From positions 1 through 35,537 of the forward strand of contig JAHYIW010000029.1 in assembly GCA_019429445.1 (NCBI GenBank): a DNA stretch of 35,537 bases, written 5' to 3'. The translations under genes were made by a program, and so were the position numbers. Position 1 is the stretch's first letter. Each line of letters opens with the position of its first letter. The notes below the pieces were generated by a model. It saw nothing but the letters and a program-made list of their open reading frames with translations, searched no databases and was not told the origin of the DNA. Origin of the DNA: Desulfuromonadaceae bacterium. Lineage in GTDB: Bacteria > Desulfobacterota > Desulfuromonadia > Desulfuromonadales > JAHYIW01. Shown here in pieces: positions 2,353 to 30,478 of this stretch.

Positions 2353-2504
2353 TGATGGCGTCGCAAAAAATCCGCCCTACGGCGTTACGCTGATTTTTCA
2401 GGACCTCGACCTACCTGATGGAGGCCTTCGTCCCTGAAAAATCACCAAGCCTTGTATGACGAAATTTTTGCTTAGCCATCTCATTCTTTTTTGCGAGTGC
2501 ATCA
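2353..2504 (+). repeat. structured ~150-bp intergenic repeat, copy 1
   Basis: First of four related copies. It begins TGATGGCGTCGCAAAAA and ends TTGCGAGTGCATCA. A long hairpin is visible: outer arms 2354-2380 and 2454-2480, inner arms 2392-2402 and 2433-2443 (GATTTTTCAGG with CCTGAAAAATC), and an apical stem around 2410-2424. The 3' tail 2487-2504 is a second complement to the first 17 bases. It lies between birA and coaX, about 30 bp ahead of the coaX start. No ORF of note. Confidence 0.9.
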
Positions 2505-2537
2505 ACATTGAACGAATCATTCGCGGGGAGAACAAGC

Positions 2538-3329
2538 GTGCTGCTGGTTATTGATGTTGGGAACACCCATACCGTCCTCGGTGTCTATCGTGATGATGAG
2601 CTGCTTCACCGCTGGCGGGTGACGAGCGATGTTTCGCGTACGGTTGACGAATATGCGGCCCTTTGTCACCAACTTTTCCAACTATCGGCTCTGCACTTTT
2701 CTGCTTTGAACGGGGTGGTTATTTCCAGTGTTGTTCCCCCGCTGGTGAAAACGCTGGAAACGCTCTGTCGTCGTTATCTCAACTGTTCCCCTTGTGTGGT
2801 TGGCCCCGGCATTGAGACCGGCATGCCAATCCATTATGATGACCCGGGTCAGGTCGGCGCCGATCGGCTGGTGAATGCTGTTGCCGCCTATGAAAAATAT
2901 CGTCGCTCCCTGATCATCGTCGATCTCGGCACCGCGACGACGTTCGACTGTATCTCTGCGGACGGTTGCTTTGAGGGGGGGGCCATTGCTCCCGGTCTCG
3001 GTATTTCAGCCGAGGCCCTTTTTTCTCGAACCCGCCAGTTACCACCGGTTGAATTCAAGAGTCCGCCGCAGGTGATCGGTAAAAATACTGAACATAGCAT
3101 GCAGTCGGGGATTTTTTACGGCTATGTCGGTCTGGTGGACGGCATCGTTGAACGCATGCAGCGGGAGTTACCTGATGAGCCGTTGACGGTGGCGACCGGC
3201 GGTCTGGCCGCAGTGATTGTCGCCGCATCACGAACGATCAGCGTGACTGATGCGGATCTGACGCTGGACGGGTTGCGAATTATTTATCAGAGGAACAAAC
3301 AGCGTTTTGACACCCTGAACGGCGAATGA
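2538..3329 (+). CDS. coaX: type III pantothenate kinase
   Basis: A protein of 263 aa that phosphorylates pantothenate, the first step of coenzyme A synthesis. The start is set at GTG 2538, because GGGGAG at 2525-2530 is well spaced from it and the protein then begins MLLVIDVGNTHTVLG, exactly as the family does. The frame is open upstream to a TTG at 2508, but that would add ten unconserved residues. Motifs: the phosphate loop DVGNT at 6-10, GADR at 107-110 for pantothenate binding, and DLGTATTFD at 129-137, the ASKHA-fold second phosphate motif. Type III enzymes need a monovalent cation and are not inhibited by CoA. The birA-coaX adjacency is common in bacteria; here a repeat element separates them. 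Confidence 0.95.
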   Translation: MLLVIDVGNTHTVLGVYRDDELLHRWRVTSDVSRTVDEYAALCHQLFQLSALHFSALNGVVISSVVPPLVKTLETLCRRYLNCSPCVVGPGIETGMPIHYDDPGQVGADRLVNAVAAYEKYRRSLIIVDLGTATTFDCISADGCFEGGAIAPGLGISAEALFSRTRQLPPVEFKSPPQVIGKNTEHSMQSGIFYGYVGLVDGIVERMQRELPDEPLTVATGGLAAVIVAASRTISVTDADLTLDGLRIIYQRNKQRFDTLNGE

Positions 3330-3453
3330 TAGAATACTTGACGGTTCATGACCGGAAGAAGACCAGCGTTCAGTTGTAATGTGAAGCAAGGAGCGGATCC
3401 ATCTCATTTTCTCTATTGAATGTCCCTTGCGGGATGCAATGAAAGGAGCGAGC

Positions 3454-5529
3454 ATGGCAAAGATCGAGACGTCTAATATCAGGAATCTTGGTATTGTCGG
3501 GCAAGGTGACGCGGGGAAAACCTCGTTGACCGAGGCAATTCTGTTCAATACCGGCATGACTGACCGCCTGGGGCATGTCGATGACGGGACTTCGACGATG
3601 GATTTTGAACCGGAAGAGGTGAAGCGGCGGATCACGATCAGTTCGAGCCTGCATCACTGTCACTGGAAGGATCATGATCTGCATATCGTTGATACCCCCG
3701 GTTATACGAACTTTCTCCATGATACCCGAAATTGTCTGCGCATCCTGGGGGGCGCGGTTTTGGTTGTCTCGGCGGTTGACGGCGTCAAGGCCCAGACTTC
3801 AACCCTCTGGAAATGGGCGGAGGAGTTTGAAGTCCCGCGGATGGTTTTTATTAACAAGCTCGATCGCGAACGCTCCGATTATCTGAAAACCGTTGATGAT
3901 ATAGAAAAAACGCTCAGCACCCGGGCAGTGGCAATAAATATGCCGATTGGACAGGAAAGCGATTTTCAGGGGATTATTGACCTGATTTCGATGCAGGCCC
4001 GCATTTTTCAATTCGACGAAAAGGGGACTTACGAAGAAACGGAAATCCCTGCGGAATATCGTGATGAAGCTGAGCGGCTACGGACCATTCTGGTTGAAGC
4101 CGCAGCGGAGTCAGATGATGCGCTGATGGAGAAATATCTTGAGGAAGAAACGCTTTCCACCGATGAAATTCTGCACGGATTGCGTGAAGGAACGCTGACC
4201 CAGGTATTTACTCCAGTGGTGTGCGGCAGCGCTACGGCGAATATTGGTATCCGTCAATTGCTCAATTATATCGTTTGTTGTTTGCCTTCACCGCTTGACA
4301 AGGGCACGCAGATCGGGATCAATCCCAAAACGCAGGAGGAGGTGCAGCGTGAGCCCGATGCGAACGAACCTTTTTCGGCGATGGTGTTCAAGACAATTAG
4401 TGATCCCTATACGGGGAAACTGACCCTTTTCAGGATCTACTCGGGGACGTTGAAGTCAGATTCCGTAGTTTATAATCCCAACCGGGAATGCACGGAGCGG
4501 ATTTCCCAGCTTTTCCTGATGGAGGGGAAGAAGCAAAAACCGGTCAGCGAAGCGTTTGCGGGGGATATCGTGGCGGTTGCCAAGCTCAAGGAAACAGCCA
4601 CGGGGGATACCTTGTGTGACGGAGGAAAACCGATCGTTTTTGCCAGTCCGATGGCACTCAAGCCGGTGATTTCCTTTGCTCTGGAAGCCAGAAGTAAAGG
4701 GGACGAAGAGAAAATCATGAGTTCACTCCAGCGGTTGATGGAGGAAGACCCGACCTTGCAGGTGCAACGCGACGAAGAAACAAAAGAAATGATCCTCTCG
4801 GGGATGGGGCAGGTGCATGTCGAAGTCGCGATTGAGAAATTGAAACGTAAGTTTGGTGTCGATGTCATTCTCAAGGAACCGAAGGTCCCTTACCGGGAAA
4901 CGTTGAAAAAGTCGGTCGATCAACACTATCGACATAAAAAGCAGTCAGGCGGTCGTGGCCAGTTTGCGGATGTCCATATCCGGGTTGAACCGCTACCGCG
5001 GGGGAGTGGTTACGAATTTGTTGATAAGGTTGTCGGCGGAGTTGTGCCGCGGCAATATATTCCGGCCGTCGATAAGGGGGTTCAGGAAACGTTGCGCAAG
5101 GGGATGCTGGCCGGTTATCCGGTTCAGGATGTTCGCGTAACCCTCTACGATGGTCAGCACCACTCGGTCGATTCCTCCGAGATGGCCTTCAAAATCGCCG
5201 GTTCAATGGCTTTTAAACGGGCCTCGGAGAGTGCCGTTCCGGTACTTCTGGAGCCGATCATGCAAATGGAGATTACCGTTCCCGATGAGTGTGTCGGGGA
5301 TGTTATCGGGGACATGAATTCCCGGCGAGGCAAGGTTCTCGGCGTCGATCCGCAGGGGAGCAATCAGGTCGTTGGCGTTCAGGTACCGATGGCAGAAGTG
5401 CTTAAATATGCGCCGGAGCTGCGTTCCATGACTTCTGACCGTGGACTTTTCAGTATGGAGTTTTCACACTACGAGGAAGTCCCTTCGCATCTGACCGCGA
5501 AGTTAATTGCCGAATTAAATCAGGAATAA
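3454..5529 (+). CDS. elongation factor G paralog (EF-G-like GTPase)
   Basis: A protein of 691 aa with the full EF-G architecture: G domain, domain II, and domains III-V. GTP motifs: G1 GQGDAGKT (16-23), G3 DTPGY (80-84), G4 NKLD (134-137), G5 GSA (258-260). The start is ATG 3454 behind AAGGAG at 3443-3448; an in-frame TTG at 3427 is less likely. The switch I region reads KRRITIS where canonical EF-G has RGITI, and the P-loop has GQGD instead of the usual AHIDAGKTT-type sequence. This places it with the paralogous EF-G-like proteins rather than with the fusA of the str operon, and no rpsL/rpsG/tuf genes lie nearby. Its exact role (translocation, recycling, or a specialised condition) cannot be read from sequence. 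Confidence 0.9.
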   Translation: MAKIETSNIRNLGIVGQGDAGKTSLTEAILFNTGMTDRLGHVDDGTSTMDFEPEEVKRRITISSSLHHCHWKDHDLHIVDTPGYTNFLHDTRNCLRILGGAVLVVSAVDGVKAQTSTLWKWAEEFEVPRMVFINKLDRERSDYLKTVDDIEKTLSTRAVAINMPIGQESDFQGIIDLISMQARIFQFDEKGTYEETEIPAEYRDEAERLRTILVEAAAESDDALMEKYLEEETLSTDEILHGLREGTLTQVFTPVVCGSATANIGIRQLLNYIVCCLPSPLDKGTQIGINPKTQEEVQREPDANEPFSAMVFKTISDPYTGKLTLFRIYSGTLKSDSVVYNPNRECTERISQLFLMEGKKQKPVSEAFAGDIVAVAKLKETATGDTLCDGGKPIVFASPMALKPVISFALEARSKGDEEKIMSSLQRLMEEDPTLQVQRDEETKEMILSGMGQVHVEVAIEKLKRKFGVDVILKEPKVPYRETLKKSVDQHYRHKKQSGGRGQFADVHIRVEPLPRGSGYEFVDKVVGGVVPRQYIPAVDKGVQETLRKGMLAGYPVQDVRVTLYDGQHHSVDSSEMAFKIAGSMAFKRASESAVPVLLEPIMQMEITVPDECVGDVIGDMNSRRGKVLGVDPQGSNQVVGVQVPMAEVLKYAPELRSMTSDRGLFSMEFSHYEEVPSHLTAKLIAELNQE

Positions 5530-5538
5530 CGATGAGCT

Positions 5539-5576
5539 GAGAGCCGGACCGTGTTGACGGTTCGGCCTCTCCTTTT
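5539..5576 (+). terminator. rho-independent terminator after the EF-G paralog
   Basis: GAGAGCCGGACCG (5539-5551), loop TGTTGA, CGGTTCGGCCTCTC (5558-5571), then CTTTT. Thirteen pairs with one bulged C and one G-U. It stands 9 bp past the EF-G stop and ends 13 bp before the next start. Confidence 0.7.
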
Positions 5577-5589
5577 ACAGAGGTTGGCC

Positions 5590-6573
5590 ATGAAATTTCC
5601 GAGTTTCAAGAAAAGGTCTGCTGCTGGGAAGACGCCAGAAGAAAAACCGCAGCAGACAAAAGCGTCCAGGGGCGCTGGCGGCAAAGGGTCTCAGACACGA
5701 TTGCTGGTATTGTTGCTCCTGCTGGTTGTCCTCGGCGTCGGTGCCAGTTTTTACCTTGGAATTATTCCGGGGATGCCAGAACCTGCGCAACAGGCTCCGG
5801 TGACGCAGCAGGTCAAACGGCAGGCGATTGCCAAACCGGAAACTTCGTCAGTCCAAAAGCAGGCGATACCCAAACCTCCTGAGTCAACGCAAAAGCCGGT
5901 GGCTGTCGTCAAACCGGTGCCGACAAAGGAGACAAAAAAAGTTGTTGAAGAGCAGGTCCCAGCGCAACCGGTGGCCGCTGTTGCGTCGCAACCGATGGTT
6001 AAAAAAACGGTTGCCGCAACAACAGCAGTGCCTTCAGTCAAACCACAGCCGGTCACCACGGTGCTGCCGGTCAAGTCTGCTGACAAACCCGCTGTCAAGA
6101 AGCAGAAGTTGGGGAATTATACCGTGCAGGTCGGCACCTTCCTGATCCCCGACTCGGTGAAAAAAGCGCGTAATGTCATCCGCAAACTTGGTTTTGACCC
6201 GGTTGTTACCGACGTCCGCCAGGCGGTCAACATGACACGTCTGCGGGCTGACGTTTATCCGGACAAGGCGGCTGCGGTTGCGCGGGTCAAGCAGCTTAAA
6301 TCTGTCGCGCCAGACTCATTTTATCTCCAGGTCGGGGCAGAATATCACGTTTATGTCGGCAGCTTCTTCAATATCGATACCGGACGACGCTTCGCCGATC
6401 ATCTCTACACGCGGGGGATCCTGCTAGAAGAGGAAGAGGTCTCGATTGTAAAAACGTTGAAGCAGGTGAGCTTTGGCCAGTTTGTCGAGAAAAAAGAAGC
6501 TGATCAGGCTGCGGCCAAAGCCCGCAAGAAAGGGCTTGATGCGCAGGTCAGTGGACTTGGCAGTCATCGGTAA
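5590..6573 (+). CDS. membrane-anchored SPOR-domain protein
   Basis: A protein of 327 aa from ATG 5590, with AGAGG at 5579-5583 just upstream. The N-terminal 36 residues are basic and cytoplasmic, followed by one membrane segment (about 37-56, LLVLLLLLVVLGVGASFYLG), so the rest is periplasmic. Residues about 63-170 are a low-complexity Pro/Lys/Val/Gln-rich spacer. From about 177 a SPOR-type domain begins (NYTVQVGTF...), and YHVYVGSFFN looks like a second half of the repeat. SPOR domains bind denuded septal peptidoglycan, so a cell-envelope or division role is likely. The gene sits directly behind a terminator; where its own promoter lies is not clear. Confidence 0.8.
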   Translation: MKFPSFKKRSAAGKTPEEKPQQTKASRGAGGKGSQTRLLVLLLLLVVLGVGASFYLGIIPGMPEPAQQAPVTQQVKRQAIAKPETSSVQKQAIPKPPESTQKPVAVVKPVPTKETKKVVEEQVPAQPVAAVASQPMVKKTVAATTAVPSVKPQPVTTVLPVKSADKPAVKKQKLGNYTVQVGTFLIPDSVKKARNVIRKLGFDPVVTDVRQAVNMTRLRADVYPDKAAAVARVKQLKSVAPDSFYLQVGAEYHVYVGSFFNIDTGRRFADHLYTRGILLEEEEVSIVKTLKQVSFGQFVEKKEADQAAAKARKKGLDAQVSGLGSHR

Positions 6574-6588
6574 GCAAGCGGTGAACGG

Positions 6589-7590
6589 GTGATACAAAGC
6601 TCTTCTTCAGTCGGAATCAAGGTGCCGCAGGTGGTGGCTCGTGTGGTCGCCGGGAGTGTCTCACGGCAGGTGCGCTTGCAGGCCGCCCGGGCAGAACTCG
6701 ACTTGCATGGCCGCGATCTGCTCCTTGCCTTGCTCCTTCTTTGGCAGGGGAATGATCCCGAGGTTAAGGTGGAGGCAGGGAAAACTCTGCGCCACTTACC
6801 CGAAGACGAGATGCTCGCTGCGATTGTTGCCGAGCCAGCTCTGCATCCCCGGCTGCTGCTCCTTTTGGCCCGTTTTCGCTGGCGCTCGGTGGCGATCCTT
6901 GACGCACTCCTCACCCACACGCAATTACCCCCCACCCTGCTTGAAGCGGTCTGTTTACAGGCTCCGCAGGAGATTGTTGCGCTGCTTGAAAAACACGAAT
7001 TGTTTTTTACTTACCCCGAGCTGATCGAAAAGGTGCTTGAAAATCCGTCGCTTGACGATGCTCAGCGTAAACATTATTCAGAATCAGAGATCCCCAAAAT
7101 TGACGCAAATGATGACAACGATGCTGAGCCGACCCCCGTCACTGCGAGTGAGGGGGAGCCGACTGAGGATGAAAAACTTTCCAAATATCAGCAGGCCCTG
7201 ACCATGAAGATTGCCGAGAAGATCAAGATGGCACTGACCGGTGACAAGGAGTGGCGGGCGATTTTTCTCAAAGACTCAAATAAATTGGTCTGCTCTGCTG
7301 CGATTAAAAATCCCCGGATCACTGATAGTGAGGTGTTGGCCGTCGCTCGCCTGAAAACGTCAAATGAAGAGCTCATTCGCTTGATCACCATGGGGAAAGA
7401 TTGGGTCAAAAACCCGGAAATTAAAAAAGCATTGGTTGTTCACCCGCGTACTCCGTTGCCTAAAGCACTCAAATATATGGACGTATTGACGCTTAAAGAT
7501 TTGAAGCAGTTGGCGAAGAGTAAAGGTGTTTCTCAAGCACTGGTCAACGCGGCACGGAAAAAAGTCGCGGATATCGCCAGGAAAATGTGA
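6589..7590 (+). CDS. conserved hypothetical alpha-helical protein
   Basis: A protein of 333 aa, not recognised with certainty. The start is taken as GTG 6589. The N-terminal half (about 1-160) is leucine- and alanine-rich with repeated helical pairs, resembling HEAT-type repeats. An acidic, disordered linker around 165-195 follows (many D, E, P, T). The C-terminal part (about 200-333) holds short repeats of the type KNPRITDSEVLAVAR and KNPEIKKALVVHPRTPLPKA, again helical-repeat-like. There is no signal peptide or membrane segment, so it is probably cytoplasmic. It lies 15 bp after the SPOR gene and 6 bp before the MOSC gene, which suggests one operon. HEAT/DUF2336-like scaffolding is a possibility, not an assignment. 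Confidence 0.75.
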   Translation: MIQSSSSVGIKVPQVVARVVAGSVSRQVRLQAARAELDLHGRDLLLALLLLWQGNDPEVKVEAGKTLRHLPEDEMLAAIVAEPALHPRLLLLLARFRWRSVAILDALLTHTQLPPTLLEAVCLQAPQEIVALLEKHELFFTYPELIEKVLENPSLDDAQRKHYSESEIPKIDANDDNDAEPTPVTASEGEPTEDEKLSKYQQALTMKIAEKIKMALTGDKEWRAIFLKDSNKLVCSAAIKNPRITDSEVLAVARLKTSNEELIRLITMGKDWVKNPEIKKALVVHPRTPLPKALKYMDVLTLKDLKQLAKSKGVSQALVNAARKKVADIARKM

Positions 7591-7596
7591 GATTTC

Positions 7597-8070
7597 ATGG
7601 AAAACGTTTCAGGCAGGATCGTCGCCGTTTGTCGCAGTGCGGCCAAAGGGGAAAGAAAAAAGTCTATACCGGTGGGCGAGTTGATCGTTGAACACGGACT
7701 GGCCAACGATGGCCACGCCGGTCCCGGTCATCGCCAGATCAGTCTGCTGGCACAGGAAAGTATCGACAAGATGTGTGCTGCCGGGCTGGATGTCCATGCC
7801 GGAGATTTTGCTGAAAATATCACTACCAGTGGTATTGAGCTGCCGGTGCTGCCGATCGGTACACGATTGGCGCTGGGTGACAAGGCGGTTGTCGAGGTGA
7901 CCCAGATTGGCAAGGAATGTCACCAGCGTTGCGCAATCTATGATCAGGCCGGTGACTGCGTCATGCCACGTGAAGGAATTTTTGCGCGGGTTGTGGTCGG
8001 CGGTGCAATTCGTGCGGGAGATCGGGTTGCGCGGATTGCTGCCCCGGTAAGCGAGGATCGCTCGGCATGA
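7597..8070 (+). CDS. MOSC domain protein
   Basis: A protein of 157 aa that is essentially one MOSC domain, as found at the C-terminus of molybdenum cofactor sulfurase and in YiiM-type proteins. Visible: GLANDGHAGPGHRQISLL (about 35-52), DFAENITTSG, GKECHQRC with two cysteines around residue 108, and a C-terminal VVVGGAIRAGD. MOSC domains bind molybdopterin-type cofactors and often handle sulfur transfer. The TGA stop overlaps the ATG of the next gene, mogA (ATGA at 8067-8070), a sign of translational coupling, and the pairing supports a molybdenum cofactor role. The exact reaction is unknown. Confidence 0.88.
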   Translation: MENVSGRIVAVCRSAAKGERKKSIPVGELIVEHGLANDGHAGPGHRQISLLAQESIDKMCAAGLDVHAGDFAENITTSGIELPVLPIGTRLALGDKAVVEVTQIGKECHQRCAIYDQAGDCVMPREGIFARVVVGGAIRAGDRVARIAAPVSEDRSA

Positions 8071-8552
8071 TTCACATTGGCGTGCTGACCTTGTCTGACC
8101 AAGGTTCACGTGGTGAGCGGGTTGATGAAAGCGGGCGGATTGCACGTGAGCTTCTCGCTCCGGTGGGGGTTGTGAGCCACTATGAATTGCTGCCGGACGA
8201 TGAGGAGGCAATTACCGCGAAGTTGCGGCAGTGGTGTGATGAGGAACATCTTGATTTGATCGTTACCACCGGAGGGACGGGGCTGACGCCGCGCGATGTG
8301 ACTCCGCAGGCGACCGCTCCGTTGCTCGATTACGAGGTTGTGGGGATGGCTGAGGCCATGCGCCATGCGAGCCTGAAGATAACCCCCTACGCAATGATTT
8401 CACGAGCCCTGGCGGGGGTTCGCGGCAGTACCCTGATTATCAACCTGCCAGGGAGTCCCAAGGGGGTCAGTGAAAACCTCAACGTTGTATTGCCGGTCTT
8501 GAAGCACGCGATTGAAAAACTTCAGGGGGCCGAGTCAGATTGTGCCCGTTGA
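8067..8552 (+). CDS. mogA: MogA/MoaB family molybdopterin adenylyltransferase
   Basis: A protein of 161 aa, the usual length for this family. It activates molybdopterin by adenylation before molybdate insertion. Motifs: GVLTLSDQGSRGERVDESG near the N-terminus, TTGGTGLTPRDVTP (about 67-80), the molybdopterin-binding signature, and LPGSPKGVSENL (about 133-144). MogA and MoaB differ little by eye, so the symbol is the better guess of the two. The start overlaps the MOSC stop by four bases. The gene ends 6 bp from the end of the convergent ZIP transporter, with no obvious terminator between. Confidence 0.9.
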   Translation: MIHIGVLTLSDQGSRGERVDESGRIARELLAPVGVVSHYELLPDDEEAITAKLRQWCDEEHLDLIVTTGGTGLTPRDVTPQATAPLLDYEVVGMAEAMRHASLKITPYAMISRALAGVRGSTLIINLPGSPKGVSENLNVVLPVLKHAIEKLQGAESDCAR

Positions 8553-8558
8553 CAGAGC

Positions 8559-9344
8559 TCAGGGAGACACCCCTGCCGCCAACGCTACAAGAATCCCCCC
8601 CAGCAGGGCGACCACTCCCTTGGCTCCTCGCTCCCGGTGAGATTCCGGAATCAGATCTGATGCGGCAATGTAGATGAATGAACCGGCGGCCACCGACATA
8701 AACATACCAAGAACCGTGAGCGGCAGGTGTTTCAGGAACAGGTAGGCACAGATCGCTCCCAGCGGAGTGGAGAAGGCGACGATTGCGGTAAAGGTCAGAG
8801 CCTTTGCTTTGCGATAGCCGTAATGCAGGAGAATGGAAGCAATCGAGACCCCGGCGGGAAGTTTATGGATGATGATCGCAAGGGTGGAGAGGATCCCGAT
8901 TTCCAGGTCGATTTCGAAGCCGACACCGATGATCAGGCCGTCAAGCAGGGAATGCAGACTCATGCCGACCAGTGCAATACCGCCCAGCGGGTGGGGATTG
9001 GCGCAATGAGCGTCATGGCTGTTCGGTTTGTCGATGTCGGAGTGCAACAGCCCTTCACGGTCAGGGTGCAGTACCAGCAGTTGTTCCAGAGCGTAAAAGG
9101 CGACGAACGTCAGCAGAAAGATGTAGTTGGCTGATGTGGTCAGCGCCGTTGCTTCGGGGAGAATATGGGTGAAACTGACCGCCAGCATAACCCCGGCAGA
9201 AAAGGCCAGCAATGCTGGAGTGTTACGGCGACACCACGCTTCTTTGGTCCAGACCAGGGCGGTGCCGACAAGAAAGGCCAGGGCCGCCAGGATGCTGAAA
9301 AAGAGGATGTGTTCCCACGCTGTAGTCATGGCGGTGATGCTCAC
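8559..9344 (-). CDS. ZIP family divalent metal transporter
   Basis: A protein of 261 aa with about seven to eight hydrophobic segments. The ZIP transport-site motifs are visible: HSLLDG in transmembrane helix 4 and HKLPAG in helix 5, with a histidine-containing loop between helices 3 and 4. ZIP proteins bring Zn, Fe or Mn into the cytoplasm; the metal cannot be told from the sequence. The longest frame starts with GTG at 9344; an ATG at 9329 is an equally good choice, since neither has a clear Shine-Dalgarno. It is divergent from the REC-PilZ gene and convergent with mogA. Confidence 0.88.
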   Translation of the reverse strand: MSITAMTTAWEHILFFSILAALAFLVGTALVWTKEAWCRRNTPALLAFSAGVMLAVSFTHILPEATALTTSANYIFLLTFVAFYALEQLLVLHPDREGLLHSDIDKPNSHDAHCANPHPLGGIALVGMSLHSLLDGLIIGVGFEIDLEIGILSTLAIIIHKLPAGVSIASILLHYGYRKAKALTFTAIVAFSTPLGAICAYLFLKHLPLTVLGMFMSVAAGSFIYIAASDLIPESHRERGAKGVVALLGGILVALAAGVSP

Positions 9345-9467
9345 TGGTCAGGTTGATCATGTTGACAGGTTTTTGTGATTGTCGGCTGTTTTTCAGCCGG
9401 TCGGGATTATGGCATGTTCGCGGACAGATTTCAATCGTTGGATAGGCTCTAAGCGGGGAGCGTTATT

Positions 9468-10187
9468 ATGTTGGAGGGAAAAAAACGGGTACTTTTGGTC
9501 GATGACGTGCAATTGTTTATCGAACTCGAAAAGTCATTTTTTCGGAAGGATGATTTTGATGTTTTCACCGCGAACGACGGTCAGGAGGCCTTGGTCGTAG
9601 CGGAGCGTGAACGTCCCGACATCATCTTTATGGATCTTTTCATGCCGAAGATGAATGGTGACGAGTGCTGCCGCCGTATCAAAGAGCATGTCGCATTAAA
9701 GTTTATCCCGGTGGTGATGGTCACTCAAGACGGCAATGACCGGGATATTGAGCTTTGTCTTCAGGCAAAATGTGACGAAATATTGTTCAAGCCGGTTGAT
9801 CGCAACCGCTTTCTGGGTTCTGTCGGCAAGTTTCTTCATGTCCCACTGCGGCAATCATCGCGTTATTCGGGGCATCTGCCGGTTCAATTCTCTTCGTCCC
9901 GAACCCCGTTGATGCGTGGTTATTCGCTCAATATCAGCGAGCAGGGGATGTTCATCGAAGTCGCCCATATCGAACCGGTTGGCGCGGAAATCAGATTAAG
10001 TTTTTTACTGGCAACGCTGGCTGCCCCGATCGATTGCAGCGCGCGCGTTGTCTGGGTGAATTCATCCAGTGAGCGTAAACAATCACACTATCCTGTCGGG
10101 ATGGGGCTGGAGTTCGTTGGTTTGTCAGCTGAGGACCAGTCGGCAATCAAGGCGTATCTGGGGACGTTGCGCCCCCTTGCAAAATAG
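9468..10187 (+). CDS. response regulator with REC and PilZ domains
   Basis: A protein of 239 aa. Residues 5-120 form a receiver domain with acidic pair D12/D13, phosphoacceptor D56 (IIFMDLFMP), T86 and K108-P109. Residues about 126-235 form a PilZ domain with RQSSR (R128, R132) and NISEQG (155-160), matching the two-part c-di-GMP binding pattern RxxxR and (D/N)xSxxG. No DNA-binding or enzymatic output is present. It should link phosphorylation to c-di-GMP sensing, for example in motility, surface behaviour or gliding, but its partner kinase is not next to it. The start is ATG 9468 with GGGGAG about eight bases upstream. It is transcribed away from the ZIP gene and stands alone before the M24 peptidase. 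Confidence 0.9.
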   Translation: MLEGKKRVLLVDDVQLFIELEKSFFRKDDFDVFTANDGQEALVVAERERPDIIFMDLFMPKMNGDECCRRIKEHVALKFIPVVMVTQDGNDRDIELCLQAKCDEILFKPVDRNRFLGSVGKFLHVPLRQSSRYSGHLPVQFSSSRTPLMRGYSLNISEQGMFIEVAHIEPVGAEIRLSFLLATLAAPIDCSARVVWVNSSSERKQSHYPVGMGLEFVGLSAEDQSAIKAYLGTLRPLAK

Positions 10188-11465: not shown

Positions 11466-11472
11466 GCAGAGA

Positions 11473-11624
11473 TGATGGCGTCGCAAAAAGTCCGCCCTAC
11501 TGCGTTACGCCGGTTTTTCAGGATCTCGACCTACCTGATGTAGGCCTTCGCCCCTGAAAAACCACCAGGCCTTGTAGGACGAAATTTTTGCTTAGCCATC
11601 CCATAAGTTTTTGCGAGTGCATCA
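11473..11624 (+). repeat. structured ~150-bp intergenic repeat, copy 2
   Basis: Same length as copy 1 (152 bp) and same ends. The apical stem reads CCTAC/GTAGG, where copies 3 and 4 have CCTGC/GCAGG: both sides of the stem changed together. The inner stem is GGTTTTTCAGG with CCTGAAAAACC. It lies at the end of the M24 gene, just before a strong terminator. Confidence 0.9.
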
Positions 11625-11638
11625 GAGATGAAACAAAC

Positions 11639-11671: not shown

Positions 11672-11688
11672 AAACCGCAAACAAATCA

Positions 11689-23333: not shown

Positions 23334-23390
23334 AGAGGGTTGTTGTCAACGCTGCCTGGACCTCTTTTGTCACCACGCTACCATGGTGAG

Positions 23391-24350
23391 ATGATGCGGA
23401 TCATTCGAGCTTTGGAGAATGTGACCGGTGCGCTACGCAATCCGGTCATGACGATCGGTAATTTCGACGGCGTGCACCTTGGACATCGCGAACTCTTTCG
23501 ACGGGTCGTGACCCGCGCCGCCGAGTATGACGGTGATGCCGTGGTGCTGACCTTTGATCCGCATCCGCTTAAAATCATCGCCCCGCAACGTGCGCCACGT
23601 TTGATCAATACCCGCGACGAGAAAGAACGCCTGATCGCCGCGTCGCGGGTTGATGTCTTGCTCAATCTTCCTTTTAACGCAACATTAAGTTCATTGACCG
23701 CTGAGGAGTTTGTTTCCCGGGTGCTGGTTGAACAGGTCGGTGTGCGCCACATCATCGTCGGTTTTGATTACGCCTTCGGGGCCGGACGCCGCGGCGACAT
23801 TGAACTGTTAGCGCGGCTTGGTGAGCAGTATCGCTTTGGAGTCGAAGTGGCCAAACCGGTCTGTATTGACGATGAAGTTTACAGTTCGACCCGCATTCGG
23901 CGGATGGTCGGTGCCGGGCAGATGGCGGAGGTTGTTGCCTACCTTGGCCGTCATTATAATCTGGAGGGAACGGTCGTCGCCGGTGTCGGGCGCGGCAAAC
24001 AACTCGGTTTTCCGACCGCGAACCTGACCACGGAGAAAGAGTTGATCCCGGCCGACGGTGTTTATGCGGTCAAGGTCTGTCTTGACGGGTCGATTCACGA
24101 TGGCGTCGTCAACATCGGCAGTACGCCGACTTTTGACGCCGGTCGTTACACCATTGAGGCGCATCTCTTTGATCTGGATGCCGATCTCTATGGAAAAGCG
24201 CTGCGTGTTTATTTTATCGAACGACTGCGGGATGAAAAGCGTTTTGCCGATGCGGATGCATTGACCCAGGCAATTGCCATGGATGTCGCGCGGGCAAAAG
24301 AGCTGTTACAGGGTGCGCGAATTATTGAATATCATGAATATCTGGGGTGA
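23391..24350 (+). CDS. ribF: bifunctional riboflavin kinase / FAD synthetase
   Basis: A protein of 319 aa, full-length for RibF. The N-terminal FMN adenylyltransferase domain has GNFDGVHLGH (23-32), LTFDPHP, and YSSTRIRRMV near 180; the C-terminal riboflavin kinase domain has GRGKQLGFPTANL and VNIGSTPTF. It makes FMN and then FAD. The start is ATG 23391 or the adjacent ATG 23394; the frame open back to 23340 is inside the short gap after rnr. No room exists for an FMN riboswitch upstream. It is likely co-transcribed with rnr, while pilB behind it has its own promoter. Confidence 0.95.
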   Translation: MMRIIRALENVTGALRNPVMTIGNFDGVHLGHRELFRRVVTRAAEYDGDAVVLTFDPHPLKIIAPQRAPRLINTRDEKERLIAASRVDVLLNLPFNATLSSLTAEEFVSRVLVEQVGVRHIIVGFDYAFGAGRRGDIELLARLGEQYRFGVEVAKPVCIDDEVYSSTRIRRMVGAGQMAEVVAYLGRHYNLEGTVVAGVGRGKQLGFPTANLTTEKELIPADGVYAVKVCLDGSIHDGVVNIGSTPTFDAGRYTIEAHLFDLDADLYGKALRVYFIERLRDEKRFADADALTQAIAMDVARAKELLQGARIIEYHEYLG

Positions 24351-24412
24351 CACGATGCTAGCGACAAAAGGGTTTTGGTCGGCAGCAGTGTTCCCCCGGG
24401 CCTGTCTATTCC

Positions 24413-24441
24413 TTGACAGGTTCAATGCGATTTTATACTAT
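24413..24441 (+). promoter_or_regulatory. sigma70 promoter for the pilB operon
   Basis: TTGACA (24413-24418), 17-bp spacer, TACTAT (24436-24441); an alternative -10 TATACT at 24434 gives 15 bp. It stands in the 144-bp gap between ribF and pilB, about 54 bp before the pilB start. Confidence 0.7.
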
Positions 24442-24494
24442 TAACGCCGGACTGATGATATTGAATGTTCTAGAATTTCAGGAGATGTGACGGT

Positions 24495-26195
24495 ATGGCC
24501 TCCAACCGACTTGGCGAACTGCTGGTTCGCAACGGTCTGATCGACGAAAAACAGCTTTCAAAAGGTTTGGAAGAGCAGAAGCTGAACGGTGGTCGTCTCG
24601 GTGCCAGCCTGATTAAACTCGGTTATATCAAGGAAGAAGAGCTGGCGGCGTTTCTGTCACGCCAGTACGGTGTCCCGTCGATCAATCTGAGTGAATTCGA
24701 GATCGACCCCGCAGTTATCTCTGCCGTTCCCGCCGACGTCTCCCAAAAATACCAGATTATTCCGATCAACCGTGCCGGTTCAACCCTGATCATCGCCATG
24801 AGCGACCCGTCGAATATTTTTGCGATCGACGACATCAAGTTCATGACCGGTTACAACGTTGAAGTGGTGGTCGCACCGGAAGCGTCAATCAAGGACGCAA
24901 TTGACAAGTATTACGATCAGAGTGCGTCGTTGGCCAGCGTCATGGACGATCTCGAAGACATCGACATGGAGGTCATCGAGGGCGATGAAGAGGTTGATGT
25001 CGGTTCTTTGGCGCAAGCGACCGAAGATGCCCCGGTTGTTAAATTATGTAATCTGATTCTGACCGATGCGATTAAACGCGGCGCCTCGGATATTCATATC
25101 GAGCCGTATGAAAAGTCGTTTCGGGTGCGTTACCGGATCGACGGGATGCTCTACGAGGTGATGAAGCCGCCGATGAAGCTGAAAAATGCGATCACCTCGC
25201 GGATCAAGATCATGGCGGAAATGGATATTGCCGAGCGTCGCCTGCCGCAGGACGGGCGGATCAAAATCAAACTTGGCAAAGACCGGGATATGGATTACCG
25301 GGTCAACTGTCTGCCGACCTTGTTTGGTGAAAAGATTTGCCTGCGGTTGCTCGATAAGTCGAATCTGCAACTCGACATGACCAAACTGGGGTATGAAACG
25401 AAGCCGTTGGAGTGGTTCAAGAAGGAAATCCACAAACCGTTCGGCATGTGTCTGGTCACCGGCCCGACCGGGTCAGGAAAGACCGTTTCGCTTTATTCCG
25501 CACTGTCGGAGCTGAACAAGGTCTCGGAAAATATATCGACGGCCGAAGATCCGGTCGAGTTTAACTTTGCCGGCATCAATCAGGTGCAGATGCACGAGGA
25601 AATCGGGCTCAACTTCGCCTCGGCACTGCGGGCATTTTTGCGTCAGGATCCGGATATCATTATGATCGGTGAGATTCGCGATTTTGAAACTGCCGAGATC
25701 GGGGTCAAGGCGGCCTTGACCGGGCACCTGGTGCTGTCGACCCTGCACACCAATGATGCACCAAGTACCATCAACCGTCTGCTCAATATGGGGATCGAAC
25801 CCTTTCTGGTCGCATCCGCCGTCAACCTGATCACCGCACAACGGCTCGGCCGACGGACGTGTCAGGAGTGCAAACAACCGGAAGATATTCCCAAAAAAGT
25901 ATTGATCGAAGCCGGTGTACCCGAGGCCGATGTCGACAGCTATGTTTCCTACAAAGGGACCGGTTGTCCGGTGTGCAACGATACCGGTTGCAAGGGGCGG
26001 GTCGGTATCTATCAGGTCATGCCGATGTTTGAGGAAATCAAGGAAATGGTTCTGGGGGGAGCCAATACCGCCGAGATCAAACAAACCTCAATGAAGCTGG
26101 GCGTAAAAACGATGCGCCAGTCGGCGCTAACCAAACTCCAGGAAGGCGTTTTGTCGATCGAGGAAGTCGGGCGCTGCACGGTTGCTGATACCTGA
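24495..26195 (+). CDS. pilB: type IV pilus assembly (extension) ATPase PilB
   Basis: A protein of 566 aa, full length. The N-terminal 150 residues form the GSPII_E/MshEN-type domain (LGELLVRNGLIDEKQL). The ATPase core has Walker A GPTGSGKT (323-330), the Asp box region around MAEMDIAERRLPQDGR, Walker B IIMIGEIRD and the His box GHLVLSTLHTND. A four-cysteine zinc site follows (CQEC ... CPVCND, about 456 onward). It powers pilin polymerisation at the inner membrane. RBS AGGAG about ten bases before ATG. Its TGA stop coincides with the outer, eroded end of repeat copy 3, which separates it from pilT. Confidence 0.97.
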   Translation: MASNRLGELLVRNGLIDEKQLSKGLEEQKLNGGRLGASLIKLGYIKEEELAAFLSRQYGVPSINLSEFEIDPAVISAVPADVSQKYQIIPINRAGSTLIIAMSDPSNIFAIDDIKFMTGYNVEVVVAPEASIKDAIDKYYDQSASLASVMDDLEDIDMEVIEGDEEVDVGSLAQATEDAPVVKLCNLILTDAIKRGASDIHIEPYEKSFRVRYRIDGMLYEVMKPPMKLKNAITSRIKIMAEMDIAERRLPQDGRIKIKLGKDRDMDYRVNCLPTLFGEKICLRLLDKSNLQLDMTKLGYETKPLEWFKKEIHKPFGMCLVTGPTGSGKTVSLYSALSELNKVSENISTAEDPVEFNFAGINQVQMHEEIGLNFASALRAFLRQDPDIIMIGEIRDFETAEIGVKAALTGHLVLSTLHTNDAPSTINRLLNMGIEPFLVASAVNLITAQRLGRRTCQECKQPEDIPKKVLIEAGVPEADVDSYVSYKGTGCPVCNDTGCKGRVGIYQVMPMFEEIKEMVLGGANTAEIKQTSMKLGVKTMRQSALTKLQEGVLSIEEVGRCTVADT

Positions 26196-26201
26196 GCCAT
26201 T

Positions 26202-26348
26202 TCCTCGCAAATACTCAAAGGATGGCTAAGTAAAAATTTTGTCCGACAAGGCTTGGTGTTTTTTCAGGGGCGAAGGCCTGCATCAGGCAGGTCGAGGTCC
26301 TGAAAAACCGGCGTAACGCAGTAGGGCGGACTTTTTGCGACGCCATCA
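26202..26348 (-). repeat. structured ~150-bp intergenic repeat, copy 3 (reversed, one end eroded)
   Basis: Same element in reverse, between pilB and pilT. Its 5' end on the minus strand is intact (TGATGGCGTC... at 26348). The 3' tail has lost the last bases after TTTGCGAG (plus CTCGCAAA at 26204-26211). The apical stem is CCTGC/GCAGG. It lies 6 bp past the pilB stop and ends 17 bp before pilT. Confidence 0.85.
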
Positions 26349-26365
26349 CATAAGGCTGAAATTAA

Positions 26366-27475
26366 ATGGCGACAATTCATCAATTGCTCAAAACCATGGT
26401 CGAACAGGGGTCTTCCGACCTGCATATCACCACCGGGTCTCCCCCGCAAATTCGTATCGACGGTCACATGACCCCGCTCAAATTGCCGCCGCTGACGGGC
26501 AACGATACCAAGAATCTCTGCTACAGTATCCTTACCGATGATCAGAAGCGCCGCTTTGAAGAAGAGAACGAACTTGATTTCTCCTTCGGTGTCAAGGGAT
26601 TGGCGCGGTTTCGGGGGAATCTGTTTCGCCAGCGCGGCGCGGTCGGCGGGGTGTTCCGGCTGATTCCGTTTAAAATCCTGACCTTCGACGATCTGGGTTT
26701 GCCGCCGGTGGTCAAGGCGATTACCAGTAAGCCCCGGGGACTGGTACTGGTCACCGGGCCGACCGGGAGTGGCAAATCGACCACCCTGGCGGCGATGATC
26801 GATGCGATCAATTCAGAGCGCCACGAGCACATCATCACCATCGAAGACCCTATCGAGTTTATTCATCCGCACAAAAAATGCCTGGTCAACCAGCGCGAAG
26901 TGGGGGGGGATACGGTTTCTTTCAAGCGGGCATTGAAGGCGATTCTGCGTCAGGACCCCGACGTGGTTCTGGTTGGCGAGTTGCGCGATCTGGAAACGAT
27001 CGAAGCGGCGTTGACCATTGCCGAAACCGGACACCTGTGTTTTGCGACCCTGCATACCAACTCTTGCGCACAAACCATCAACCGGGTGGTTGACGTTTTC
27101 CCCACCAATCAGCAGCAACAGGTGCGCACCCAGCTTGCATTTGTTCTCGAAGGGGTCCTGTCACAAACCCTGGTGCCCAAGGTTGGCGGCAGAGGGCGGG
27201 CGCTGGCGCTCGAAGTCATGGTGCCGAATGTCGCGATCCGGGCCTTGATTCGCGAAGACAAGATCCATCAGATCTATTCACAGATGCAGATGGGACAAGA
27301 TAAATATGGGATGCAGACGATGAATCAGCAACTTTTCATGTTGCTGCATCAAAAACAGATTACGCTCGAAACGGCCATGTCACGTTCCAGCGATATAGAC
27401 GAATTGAAACAGATGATTGCCAACCCGGCGGCGCACATCAAGCGATACGCCACCCCGCCACCACCGAAGCGTTGA
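26366..27475 (+). CDS. pilT: type IV pilus retraction ATPase PilT
   Basis: A protein of 369 aa. Walker A GPTGSGKS (131-138), Walker B VVLVGELRD, and the His-box region GHLCFATLHTN are visible. It also has the PilT-type N-terminal domain (SDLHITTGSPPQIRIDG) and the C-terminal PilT signature (TMNQQL). It lacks the N-terminal domain and zinc site of PilB. It disassembles pilin from the base to retract the pilus, and retraction drives twitching and DNA uptake in related bacteria. The start is ATG 26366, soon after the repeat; no clear Shine-Dalgarno of the AGGAG type is visible, so it may be co-translated from a transcript that carries the repeat. Confidence 0.96.
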   Translation: MATIHQLLKTMVEQGSSDLHITTGSPPQIRIDGHMTPLKLPPLTGNDTKNLCYSILTDDQKRRFEEENELDFSFGVKGLARFRGNLFRQRGAVGGVFRLIPFKILTFDDLGLPPVVKAITSKPRGLVLVTGPTGSGKSTTLAAMIDAINSERHEHIITIEDPIEFIHPHKKCLVNQREVGGDTVSFKRALKAILRQDPDVVLVGELRDLETIEAALTIAETGHLCFATLHTNSCAQTINRVVDVFPTNQQQQVRTQLAFVLEGVLSQTLVPKVGGRGRALALEVMVPNVAIRALIREDKIHQIYSQMQMGQDKYGMQTMNQQLFMLLHQKQITLETAMSRSSDIDELKQMIANPAAHIKRYATPPPPKR

Positions 27476-27486
27476 TTTGAGGAACC

Positions 27487-28704
27487 ATGCCCAAATATTC
27501 GTGGGAAGCAAAAGACAAAAAAGGTAAAGTTCACAAGGGCGAGGTTGAAGCGCCGAATGAGGATGTTGTCCGTGCCCAGGTGAAAGCCCAGGGGTTGATG
27601 GTCACCGCCGTCAAGGAACGCGGCAAGGGGCTGGATTTTGAACTCAAAATCCCCGGCTTTGAGCCCAAAGTCACCACCCGCGACCTTGTCATCTTTACCC
27701 GCCAGTTCAGCACCATGATCGATGCCGGTTTGCCGCTGGTGCAATGCCTGGATATTCTGTCGAGTCAGCAGGAGAATAAAACCTTCAAGAAAATGCTGAC
27801 CCAGATCAAGGAAGATGTTGAATCCGGCTCCACCTTTGCCGATGCGCTGAAAAAACACCCCAAAGGTTTTGATGAACTCTACGTCAACCTGATTGCCGCG
27901 GGCGAGGTCGGCGGTATTCTGGATACCATTCTCAACCGCCTGGCGGCGTATATCGAAAAAGCGCAGAAACTCAAGAAACAGGTCAAAAGCGCCATGACCT
28001 ACCCGATTACCATCATCGGTATCGCGGCGTTGGTTATTATTGTCATCATGGTTTTTGTTATCCCCGCCTTCGAAAAAATGTTCGCGGATTTCGGTGGTTC
28101 ATTGCCGATGCCGACCCAGATCGTCATCGCCATGAGTCGCTTTATTACCAGTTATATTCTGGTGATCATCGGCGCCGTTTTCGCGTTTATCACCCTTGTT
28201 AAACGCATTTATGCCACCAAAAAGGGGCGGGAGATCATGGACGACTGGTTCCTTAAACTCCCGGTCTTTGGTGAACTGATCCGCAAGGTTTCAGTCGCCA
28301 AATTTACCCGAACCCTGGGGACAATGATTTCCAGTGGCGTGCCGATCCTTGATGGCCTGGAAATTGTCGCCAAAACCGCCGGCAACAAGACTGTGGAAAA
28401 AGCGATCTATGTCGTCCGGCAGAGCATCAGCGAAGGGAAGACCATTTCCGAGCCGCTCACCAAAACCGGCGTTTTCCCGTCGATGGTGTGTCAGATGATC
28501 GCCGTCGGTGAACAGTCCGGATCGATCGATACCATGCTCAATAAAATTGCCGATTTCTATGATGACGAGGTCGACGATGCCGTCGGCAACCTGACGGCCA
28601 TGATGGAGCCAATGCTCATGGCCTTTCTCGGTACAACCGTCGGTGGTCTGGTTATCGCCATGTATCTGCCGATTTTCAAACTTGCCGGAGCCGCGGGCGG
28701 TTAA
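27487..28704 (+). CDS. pilC: type IV pilus inner-membrane platform protein PilC
   Basis: A protein of 405 aa of the GspF/PilC family with two GspF domains. Three membrane segments are visible, near IIGIAALVIIVIMVFVIPAF (about 178-197), YILVIIGAVFAFITLV (about 222-237) and FLGTTVGGLVIAMYLPIF (about 381-398). The conserved motif FTRQFSTMIDAGLPL (about 70-84) is the first half of the family signature and is repeated as FTRTLGTMISSGVPI around 273. PilC connects the cytoplasmic ATPases to pilin assembly. It is spaced 11 bp after pilT and 9 bp before pilS, so the genes form one operon. Confidence 0.96.
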   Translation: MPKYSWEAKDKKGKVHKGEVEAPNEDVVRAQVKAQGLMVTAVKERGKGLDFELKIPGFEPKVTTRDLVIFTRQFSTMIDAGLPLVQCLDILSSQQENKTFKKMLTQIKEDVESGSTFADALKKHPKGFDELYVNLIAAGEVGGILDTILNRLAAYIEKAQKLKKQVKSAMTYPITIIGIAALVIIVIMVFVIPAFEKMFADFGGSLPMPTQIVIAMSRFITSYILVIIGAVFAFITLVKRIYATKKGREIMDDWFLKLPVFGELIRKVSVAKFTRTLGTMISSGVPILDGLEIVAKTAGNKTVEKAIYVVRQSISEGKTISEPLTKTGVFPSMVCQMIAVGEQSGSIDTMLNKIADFYDDEVDDAVGNLTAMMEPMLMAFLGTTVGGLVIAMYLPIFKLAGAAGG

Positions 28705-28713
28705 GGTTTCTGC

Positions 28714-30330
28714 ATGTCGGCACAGCAAGACCAGAACGCAGCTTTGACCCGCGTCCGGCAGTTTCAGTGGCTGCTGCTGTTCAGGATTACCGTCATTCTG
28801 ATTTTTTTAGGGGGGACTTTCCTGTTTTATTTCCGGGAAGGTCTTCTCTGGACCTCGCCGCACCTTTTCCCGCTCTATGGGTTGGCCCTTTTTTCCTTCA
28901 TTCACGCCCTGCTTTCCTCGGTTTTTTTGCGACGAACCCGTCGTTTCAGGCTGTTTGTGCAGCTGCAAGTTGTCTGGGATATTGTCTTCGTCGCATTTCT
29001 TATCCATTTTTCCGGGGGGATAAACAGTTTTTTTTCGTTCGCCTATATCCTGCTGATCGTCAGCTACAGTTTTTTTCTCGACCGCAGAGAACTGCTGCTG
29101 TGCGCCTCCGGTGCCTCCATCCTTTACGGGAGCATGCTGGATCTGCAATATTACGGCTACCTCGACTTCTTGCAGGTGCCGCCCGCCGGTCCAATCCCGT
29201 TGTCCGAAGTTGTCTATGCGGTGTTCCTCAACGTTTCAGCCTACTACATCACCGCCTTGCTGGGGGGTGCCCTGGTCTCCCGTTTAAATCGCAGCGAACG
29301 TGCCCTTGAAAAAAAGGTAATCGACTACAAGGAACTCGAACGGCTCAACCGCAGTATTCTTTACAGTATCAGCAGCGGCTTGATGCTGATTAACAGCGCC
29401 GGGCGCATTCGTCTGTTAAATGCCGCCGCCGAACGGATCACCGGTTACCAGCTCAAAGAGGTCTACGACACGCTTTTGATCGACCTTTTCCCCGAATTTG
29501 AGGCGTTTGACGGAGGGTTTAAACTGGTTAAGCGTGGCGAATGCCGGATACTGTCGAAAGGTCGTCAGGAAATCTGGCTGGGTTACAATTCGACCCTCAT
29601 CAAACATCCGGGAGAAGGCCATTTAAGTTTGCTTATCACATTTCAGGATCTGACCGAGTTGAAACTTTCGGAGGAAAGACTCCAGCAATCGGCGCGGATG
29701 GTCGCCGTCGGGCAGTTGGCGGCAGGGCTTGCCCACGAGATCCGCAACCCGCTGGCATCGATCAGCGGGACGATTCAATTGCTCCTTGAAAATCGGTCGA
29801 TACCGGAAAAGGACACGCGGCTGATGGCATTGACGATGCGTGAAGTGCGCCGCCTTAACACGCTGCTCACCGATTTTCTGGTTTACGCCCGGCCCTCCCC
29901 GTTGCGGCGTTCAGCGGTTAGCGGCGAGCAGATTGTCGAATCGCTGTTGCTGCTGGTCGATGCTGACGAGCGTTTCAAGGAGATTAAGATCGACTGTTCA
30001 TCCGTTTCTCAAGAATCGTTTTCGCTGGATAAGGAGAAGGTTTGTCAGGCTCTGTGGAACTTGCTGCTCAATGCGGCGGCTGCGTTGCACTATCGCGGCA
30101 CCATTTCCATCACCTTTGATCCCGGCAAGGCGCAGATCAGAGTTGAAGATAACGGCCCCGGTGTCCCCCCGGAACTCAAACAGCGCATCTTCGAGCCGTT
30201 CTTTACCACCAAAGATGCCGGGACCGGGCTGGGGCTGGCGACTGTTTTTACCATCATGCAGGCACATCATGGGCAGATCACGGTTGCTGATCGCCCCGGC
30301 GGTGGTACCAGCATGATTATGGAATTTTGA
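28714..30330 (+). CDS. pilS: sensor histidine kinase PilS
   Basis: A protein of 538 aa. The N-terminal 170-190 residues hold about six hydrophobic segments, typical of PilS. A PAS-like domain follows (SGLMLINSAGRIRLLNAAAE). The kinase core has the H box at H341 (AHEIRNPLASIS), an N box (ALWNLLLNAAAAL), the G1 box DNGPGVPP and G2 motif GTGLGLATV near the end. It probably controls PilR by phosphorylation. In other bacteria PilS senses pilin levels in the membrane; that this happens here is inferred. The stop codon TGA at 30328-30330 is the first three bases of repeat copy 4, so the element supplies the end of the protein. Confidence 0.93.
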   Translation: MSAQQDQNAALTRVRQFQWLLLFRITVILIFLGGTFLFYFREGLLWTSPHLFPLYGLALFSFIHALLSSVFLRRTRRFRLFVQLQVVWDIVFVAFLIHFSGGINSFFSFAYILLIVSYSFFLDRRELLLCASGASILYGSMLDLQYYGYLDFLQVPPAGPIPLSEVVYAVFLNVSAYYITALLGGALVSRLNRSERALEKKVIDYKELERLNRSILYSISSGLMLINSAGRIRLLNAAAERITGYQLKEVYDTLLIDLFPEFEAFDGGFKLVKRGECRILSKGRQEIWLGYNSTLIKHPGEGHLSLLITFQDLTELKLSEERLQQSARMVAVGQLAAGLAHEIRNPLASISGTIQLLLENRSIPEKDTRLMALTMREVRRLNTLLTDFLVYARPSPLRRSAVSGEQIVESLLLLVDADERFKEIKIDCSSVSQESFSLDKEKVCQALWNLLLNAAAALHYRGTISITFDPGKAQIRVEDNGPGVPPELKQRIFEPFFTTKDAGTGLGLATVFTIMQAHHGQITVADRPGGGTSMIMEF

Positions 30331-30478
30331 TGGCGTCGCAAAAATTCCGCCCTCCGGCGTTACGCCGGTTTTTCAGGACCTCGACCTGCCTGATGCAGGC
30401 CTTCGCCCCTGAAAAACCACCAGGCCTTGGAGGACGAAATTTTTGCCTGGCCATCCAATTTTTTTTGCGAGTGCATCA
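30328..30478 (+). repeat. structured ~150-bp intergenic repeat, copy 4
   Basis: Lies between pilS and pilR. The outer stem has CCTCC/GGAGG where copy 2 has CCTAC/GTAGG, a two-sided change. The apical stem is CCTGC/GCAGG. A short extra palindrome CCGGCG-TTA-CGCCGG is also present. The first bases form the pilS stop codon; the last bases lie 31 bp before the pilR start. Confidence 0.9.

Follow-up and report, generated by a model that had tools for sequence, protein, structure and literature searches.

Correia/NEMIS, ERIC, BOX and RUP are small folded mobile intergenic repeats, and a host-serving RNA role has been proposed for Correia elements. Repetitive extragenic palindromic sequences (REPs) and bacterial interspersed mosaic elements (BIMEs) are moved by REP-associated tyrosine transposases (RAYTs), for which no target duplication is expected, and the bcr1 repeat has a target duplication of 5 bp. 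According to the accessible parts of the respective sources, REPs are 20–40 bp long (PMC3733652); bcr1–bcr3 of the Bacillus cereus group are intergenic repeats that resemble miniature inverted-repeat transposable elements (MITEs) and often lie in untranslated regions (PMC3446304); Bcr1 is 167 bp long and has a common predicted structure (PMC2267715); the Chunjie MITE of Geobacter uraniireducens occurs in 38 copies of 178–235 bp with conserved ends and direct repeats (PMC10969869); and the “multicopy nucleotide sequences” of Geobacter and Pelobacter are intergenic and include some palindromic families (PMC2700814, PMC2996986, PMC3543383). Here we describe a structured element of about 150 bp that is present in four copies in a stretch of 35,537 nt from a Desulfuromonadaceae bacterium (contig JAHYIW010000029.1 of assembly GCA_019429445.1). 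This whole stretch is hereafter called the window, and coordinates refer to it unless another locus is named.

Comparison with these systems revealed that (i) the element, with its 150 bp and its 6-bp target duplications, does not fit the 20–40 bp REPs, in agreement with the preliminary description of this DNA, in which it was not recognised as a REP family; (ii) it resembles bcr1–bcr3 in being MITE-like, intergenic and structured, but differs from them by description in its hosts, its 6-bp duplication of an A-N4-T target, its three boxes, its phylum-wide occurrence and its very different stem letters; (iii) it shares with Chunjie a related host, conserved ends and direct repeats, whereas Chunjie is longer, a comparison made by description, so that the element may be identical to Chunjie; (iv) the multicopy nucleotide sequences were tabulated in related hosts, and the accessible parts of those sources hold no analysis of mobility, duplication or covariation; and (v) the likeness to Correia/NEMIS, ERIC, BOX and RUP is one of description, and none of the 4227 Rfam families matched the window at the gathering score (0 matches). 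At six related loci, Rfam matched only tRNA and a group II intron, both away from the element; weak Rfam matches with high E-values were all below threshold and were treated as chance. Neither a description of the element nor fragments of its sequence were found in open-licence literature, and an earlier listing without analysis is possible. We think it likely that the element belongs to a non-coding, MITE-like mobile superfamily of Desulfobacterota-type lineages, the hairpin of which is kept for the element's own propagation. The computations presented below show that predicted pairing is kept while the letters change, and that the strand with the better fold is constant over the copies and clusters examined.

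The four copies are present at the positions given in the preliminary description, and all four align end to end with one another. Their exact borders are given by target duplications, which define an element of 150 bp in copies 1 and 2 and of 149 bp in copy 4, without a transposase gene or a reading frame. Copy 1 (2354–2503, core 2354–2480), copy 2 (11474–11623, core 11474–11600) and copy 4 (30329–30477, core 30329–30455) have their better-folding strand on the minus strand and are flanked by the duplications AACATT (6 bp; 2348–2353 and 2504–2509), AGAGAT (6 bp; 11468–11473 and 11624–11629) and AATTTT (30323–30328 and 30478–30483), respectively. Copy 3 (26198–26347, core 26221–26347) is a reverse insertion with its better-folding strand on the plus strand; its outer border is extrapolated because its right end is decayed and has no target duplication.

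Each copy contains three related boxes, which follow the pattern GA-N7-G(C/T)AAAAA in the host genome. We designate these boxes E1 (end), I (internal) and T (terminal). E1 and T form the opposite extreme ends of the element, and I begins about 23 bp inside E1. Boxes I and T are complementary to each other and close a hairpin of about 127 nt, outside which E1 is located. In copy 2, box T (GATGGCGTCGCAAAAA; 11474–11489, plus strand) pairs with box I (GATGGCTAAGCAAAAA on the minus strand; 11585–11600), and E1 (GATGCACTCGCAAAAA on the minus strand; 11608–11623) lies outside the folded core. From the E1 end, this copy consists of E1, 7 nt, box I, a stem, the motif CAAGGC, a second stem, an internal loop and the apical stem, and then runs back to the motif AACGCAG and the complement of box T (TTTTTGCGACGCCATC). 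The terminal inverted repeats are present, with an imperfect GATGnnnTCGCAAAAA at both ends.

Alignment of 44 copies with their flanks revealed sharp borders and flanking direct repeats. The 4-mers just outside the borders given in the preliminary description were identical in 21 of the 35 copies that passed the border filter (9 were dropped), compared with 21 of 1190 cross-copy pairs. With the borders set at GATG...CATC, the duplication becomes 6 bp long and the target reads A-N4-T. This 6-bp duplication is exact in 25 of 53 host copies (36 with at most one mismatch) and in 27 of 53 copies from relatives (31 with at most one mismatch; 2 of 55 were excluded for a flank that was short or contained N), whereas the 2756 cross-copy control pairs gave 21 exact cases for the host and 8 for the relatives (194 and 136, respectively, with at most one mismatch). 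An alternative reading as a 4-bp duplication, in which the element would end in TGATG...CATCA, was rejected in favour of 6 bp, since L017 and L024 have a different base there; in each of them the variant base matches on both sides, and L024 has one other mismatch.

The sister genome G001, which is 97% identical over the gene before copy 2, lacks the element at all four sites of the window. For copies 1, 2 and 4, the sister genome has clean empty sites with a single copy of the duplication (one base differs for copy 1), and the site of copy 3 is a changed stretch. Elsewhere, another repeat is nested inside the element copy of L079, and neighbouring copies at L038/L090 have a border duplication in common. 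The target duplications and the empty sites mark the element as MITE-like and support the mobility contained in the earlier suggestion that it spreads as a folded unit. The element is mobile and has recently moved within the host genome.

The fold was analysed in an alignment of 108 full-length copies (53 from the host and 55 from relatives; 33 partial or edge matches were dropped). The minus strand of copy 2 has a predicted energy of −66.7 kcal/mol (z −6.9) and its plus strand −51.0 kcal/mol (z −4.3); for copies 1, 3 and 4, the z values of the less stable strand are −4.4, −1.5 and −5.1. The minus strand was lower in energy in all 108 copies, with means of −63.5 versus −48.6 kcal/mol. RNAalifold gave a poor consensus on the 108 sequences, and pair counts on the named structure were therefore used. 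In this structure 96.4% of the cells pair. Twelve of the 46 pairs changed on both sides (shuffles 5.4, with 0 of 500 reaching 12; slid control 4–11), as did 99 cells (shuffles 40; slid control 7–17), and 16 of 46 pairs did so in 29 sequences that include two distant ones (shuffles 4.6; slid control 4–8), all counts for which the controls ignore the tree and in which cells are not independent, copies within one genome being related. Since related sequences can beat shuffles, the slid control and the distant families weigh more. The pair at alignment columns 89–105 covaries strongly (C-G in 56 and A-U in 49), and further covarying pairs are found at columns 66–127 (G-C to A-U, 6) and 52–142 (G-C to A-U, 4).

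The letter changes that the preliminary description had listed between the four copies are present, and its claim of covariation across three stems holds in part. The fold is kept beyond the four copies, and the apical A-U/G-C pair (columns 91–101) is well kept, being unpaired in 4 of 106 cells. The cited outer pair (columns 57–137) and inner pair (columns 70–123), however, are weak, with pairing absent from 32 of 108 cells and from 42 of 106 cells, respectively; these two stems are noisy, and only single pairs change together.

At six consensus pairs the minus strand has G.U, which corresponds to A.C on the plus strand, and no A.C cell was found at these positions. These pairs bear on a possible origin of compensation without selection, in which one arm would be copied onto the other through hairpin-templated repair or gene conversion. 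Long arms, many copies and recent spread would favour such copying. Arm-copying would restore Watson–Crick pairs on both strands, whereas the six wobble positions persist, and single-sided mismatches are common at some pairs; we regard this origin as quite improbable.

The searches by covariance model and by the basic local alignment search tool (BLAST) that the preliminary description had outlined found copies throughout the host genome and in relatives. With copy 2 as the query, BLAST yielded 42 matches in the host genome; 10 other full-length and 4 partial host copies are 95–99% identical to copy 2, and one copy in the sister genome is 99% identical to it. The covariance model R1, which covers the 127-nt core and was built from 29 sequences, gave 69 distinct host places among the matches listed (150 of 1294 candidates were scored, and 55 of the 124 rows give the opposite strand of a place already counted), of which at least four touch contig ends and are possibly halves or overlaps of one copy. 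The structural strand scored higher in all 55 host places that were scored on both strands. The end motif TGATGnnnTCGCAAAAA, with at most two mismatches, occurs 98 + 96 times, compared with 6 + 10 times for the reversed control, and the abundance of the family is far beyond chance. Among relatives, 25 of 58 genomes match by BLAST, and the model with stricter filters matched 64 of 297 genomes of the phylum in 43 of 199 genera, the host being included in both genome counts.

A scan of whole genomes for left ends followed by another interior revealed 69 stretches; the names of 55 of them refer to Deltaproteobacteria or to Desulfo-, Geo- or Pelo- lineages. The model found 57 places in 86 selected loci, which comprised 56 of these 69 stretches and 30 loci from the phylum model search. 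The 57 places include the same sequence reached twice in two cases (L128/L275 and L133/L278), and 21 of the 56 left-end stretches contain such places. The other 13 left-end loci, namely 12 outside the Delta/Desulfo names and L185, gave no model match even at E ≤ 1. In each of the 57 places the better fold is on the strand that the model chose, and after clustering below 75% identity the same strand is better in 21 of 21 clusters (mean z −6.9), a result that is partly conditioned by the strand-assigning model having been built from one strand. The strand is also given by a TAAG box in 45 of the 57 places, and eight groups defined by the TAAG box alone agree on the strand (8 of 8; L262 overlaps the main family). 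In an orientation test without a fixed direction, the expected strand was better in only 7 of 14 groups, because this search took palindromic cores in both directions. The loop motifs CAAGGC and AACGCAG are kept in most families, and the inner stems change their letters fast. A repeat of the right flank (at least 6 bp) was found 20–34 nt before the core, about where E1 is expected to start, in 21 of the 54 divergent-family places with enough flank (two sequences are included twice). The proposal that the fold itself is selected is thus supported by covariation in two alignments, by divergent relatives with the same architecture and by the constant strand preference, and the fold seems to be what evolution preserves.

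These divergent families also bear on the reading of the element as an ordinary MITE, that is, a deletion derivative of an insertion sequence in which the palindrome is a by-product of terminal and subterminal binding sites and the fold is functionless. The target duplications, the inverted ends, the missing reading frame and the nested and truncated copies are all those of an ordinary MITE; the three related boxes resemble multiple binding sites, and mini-elements composed of two ends and a duplication exist (43 bp in L145, and 110 bp in L326 with E1-type boxes at both ends). By contrast, the inner stems do not reproduce the boxes and, although they differ from family to family, they still pair; the G.U pairs are constant in strand; and one architecture of about 150 bp recurs in 43 of the 199 sampled genera, whereas bacterial MITEs are mostly read as short-lived leftovers of insertion sequences. 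We therefore consider a functionless fold rather unlikely and favour a hairpin kept for propagation. Whether gene-less mobile DNA can be held together by selection on its fold becomes testable as a general question, and the covariance model provides a tool for annotating as yet unexplained repeats of sulfate-, sulfur- and metal-reducing bacteria.

For propagation of this kind, a putative transposase would act in trans, recognise the boxes and make a 6-bp staggered cut at the target. One single strand, either a transcript or single-stranded DNA, would have to fold for the element to propagate, and the hairpin would be kept for that purpose. In G265, copies with the same E1 box (GATAAACTCGTAAAAA), a constancy that is an effect of the search pattern since E1 variants appear in a looser scan, have the I/T pairs GATGGC/GCCATC or GACAGC/GCTGTC, and at two sites there is also GACGGC/GTCGTC, which contains a wobble pair. 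In this genome I and T change together regardless of E1. A bolder and more tentative reading, which we consider possible but hold to be less probable than its opposite, is that of a long-lived, gene-less selfish lineage analogous to short interspersed nuclear elements, in which a strand-specific folded strand would be part of the element's own transposition, and the folded end and its internal partner would co-evolve while the other end is independent.

Besides the limits given above for the covariation controls, the cluster strands and the E1 boxes of G265, the following points weigh against a fold kept for propagation: (i) five of the 21 clusters have folds little better than those of shuffled sequences (z −1.25 to −2.54); (ii) for a stretch of 200 nt from L133 the other strand gave the better fold, although its core keeps the expected strand (−52.3 vs −50.0); (iii) outside the six consensus G.U pairs, 86 G.U and 44 A.C cells amount to a modest strand bias; (iv) the I/T covariation could also come from two inverted binding sites of one protein, without folding, an alternative that does not explain the inner stems and is thus limited to I and T; (v) no promoter-like site was found near copy 2; and (vi) the enzyme searches described in the following paragraph gave no candidate that carries the end boxes.

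DDE_Tnp_1 gave 8 matches in G000, G001 and G030, none at end boxes; rve gave 36 matches in 8 genomes, with no end boxes at the 30 loci scanned; and DDE_Tnp_1_6 gave 6 matches in 12 genomes, with no end boxes at the loci. Three weak box-like matches at the DDE_Tnp_1 locus L116 were taken as chance because the transposase gene there lies between different inverted repeats. Among the open reading frames (ORFs) within 3.5 kb of the 69 left-end stretches, no common transposase was recognised by eye, and the largest ORF clusters comprise five ORFs. Unpaired ends in the host genome had no convincing partner in a first scan with a reach of about 1.5 kb, nor was a convincing far partner found in six unpaired-end regions with 3.7 to 11 kb of room; the wider scan yielded a single weak candidate at a distance of 7117 bp with a total of four mismatches, and the other pairs had no matching duplication. 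An autonomous element with the same ends was thus not found with three transposase families, two end-pattern scans and the clustering of neighbouring ORFs. L374 contains two box-like stretches, GATGC(A/C)CTCGCAACAAG, that run in the same direction 1947 bp apart (G000:C2 near 119830 and 121777), each preceded by ACGATT.

In G265, a first search revealed six E1 boxes without the usual core. Those of L326 and L327 are part of an element of 110 bp whose two ends are both E1-type boxes (3922–4031 in L326, where it has the 6-bp duplication AAAATT), which represents a small family with the same kind of end. At L328, E1 neighbours a truncated copy as well as a Y1-like gene, which is not enclosed by the ends; the remaining three boxes without the usual core are those of L329–L331. 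A REP/RAYT system, in which a Y1 transposase acts on single-stranded hairpins, would agree with the strand-specific hairpin, and genes that we take to be Y1-like from their motif are present in the host genome and in G265. The fixed 6-bp target duplications, however, are not expected for such systems; the presumed Y1-transposase-like gene at L107 4827–5831 (G000:C54) is bordered by an unrelated palindrome (GGGACGTTGTTTACTTGTTGA); and the Y1-like gene of L328 lies beside the truncated element and not inside it. We judge such a system to be very improbable here.

According to a simple heuristic ORF picker, 45 of 52 scorable host copies are located between ORFs and 7 inside an ORF (1 of 53 copies was unclear and left out). 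The orientations of the neighbouring ORFs are opposite/opposite in 16 cases, same/same in 11, opposite/same in 10 and same/opposite in 8, with no clear preference. Junctions were counted with at least 400 bp of flank. Of the 105 left junctions, 20 have their TGA as the exact end of a frame that is open over 100 codons or more, and the other two frames are open in 7 and 4; of the 106 right junctions, 6 coincide in this way with the end of an open frame, and the other frames are open in 4 and 6. Some flanks are about 450 bp long, and open frames in them are truncated where the locus ends. When the empty sites of the 20 left-junction cases are rebuilt, 13 of them have a stop at that codon. In the window, the left junction TGA of copy 4 (30328–30330) is the stop codon of a PilS-like kinase gene (28714–30330). 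New junctions read TGATG, and an element landing in a TGA stop codon therefore restores it, which may help explain why insertions are tolerated.

This context allows a further reading to be weighed, that of a host-serving RNA, in which a regulatory or processing hairpin in mRNA also moves, as proposed for some bcr repeats. Its strand-specific fold, the loop motifs kept in most families and the 45 of 52 copies between ORFs would suit such a role. The copies, however, have no clear orientation preference relative to their neighbours; most of the frames that end at junctions run into the strand with the poorer fold (20 of 105 left versus 6 of 106 right); and the insertions in the window are not common to the sister genome. 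A host-serving role thus appears doubtful, and selection for propagation is favoured over a function for host genes because no clear orientation bias towards neighbouring genes was seen.

No match was found in 72,556 plasmid or 50,697 phage records. In a viral collection, the model matched 6 of 37 loci from two end scans, on 5 contigs; these loci (L332, L344, L349, L357, L358 and L368) are cases of possible prophage or phage carriage. G313 has at least 11 copies; ten have equal scores and seven of them are located at contig starts, a pattern that suggests a very recent burst that breaks the assembly. There are signs of recent bursts in several genomes.

Other repeats were noticed beside the element. 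A second repeat family of about 169 nt is present in the window at 31948–32116 and 32929–33097, in inverted orientation and with 87% identity. Its two copies flank two small minus-strand ORFs (32215–32553 and 32550–32828), neither of which has a Pfam match at E ≤ 0.001. Relatives of this family (78–79%) are found in L004, L005, L034 and L071, and inside the element copy of L079 (78%). A 69-nt direct repeat (94%; 31863–31931 and 33117–33185) duplicates the end of a sigma-54 regulator gene around the second-family module, as if the module had been inserted with a long duplication. An additional palindromic stretch (GAGTAACTTCAA...TTGAAGTTACTC) close to box I is common to the element copies of L085 and L088 (G000:C17 near 10545 and C27 near 23397); it is either a third small mobile repeat or an old variant. 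L145, from Pelobacter sp. UBA6093, contains an apparent mini-element of 43 bp that consists of the two ends only and is flanked by the 6-bp duplication ATTTAT.

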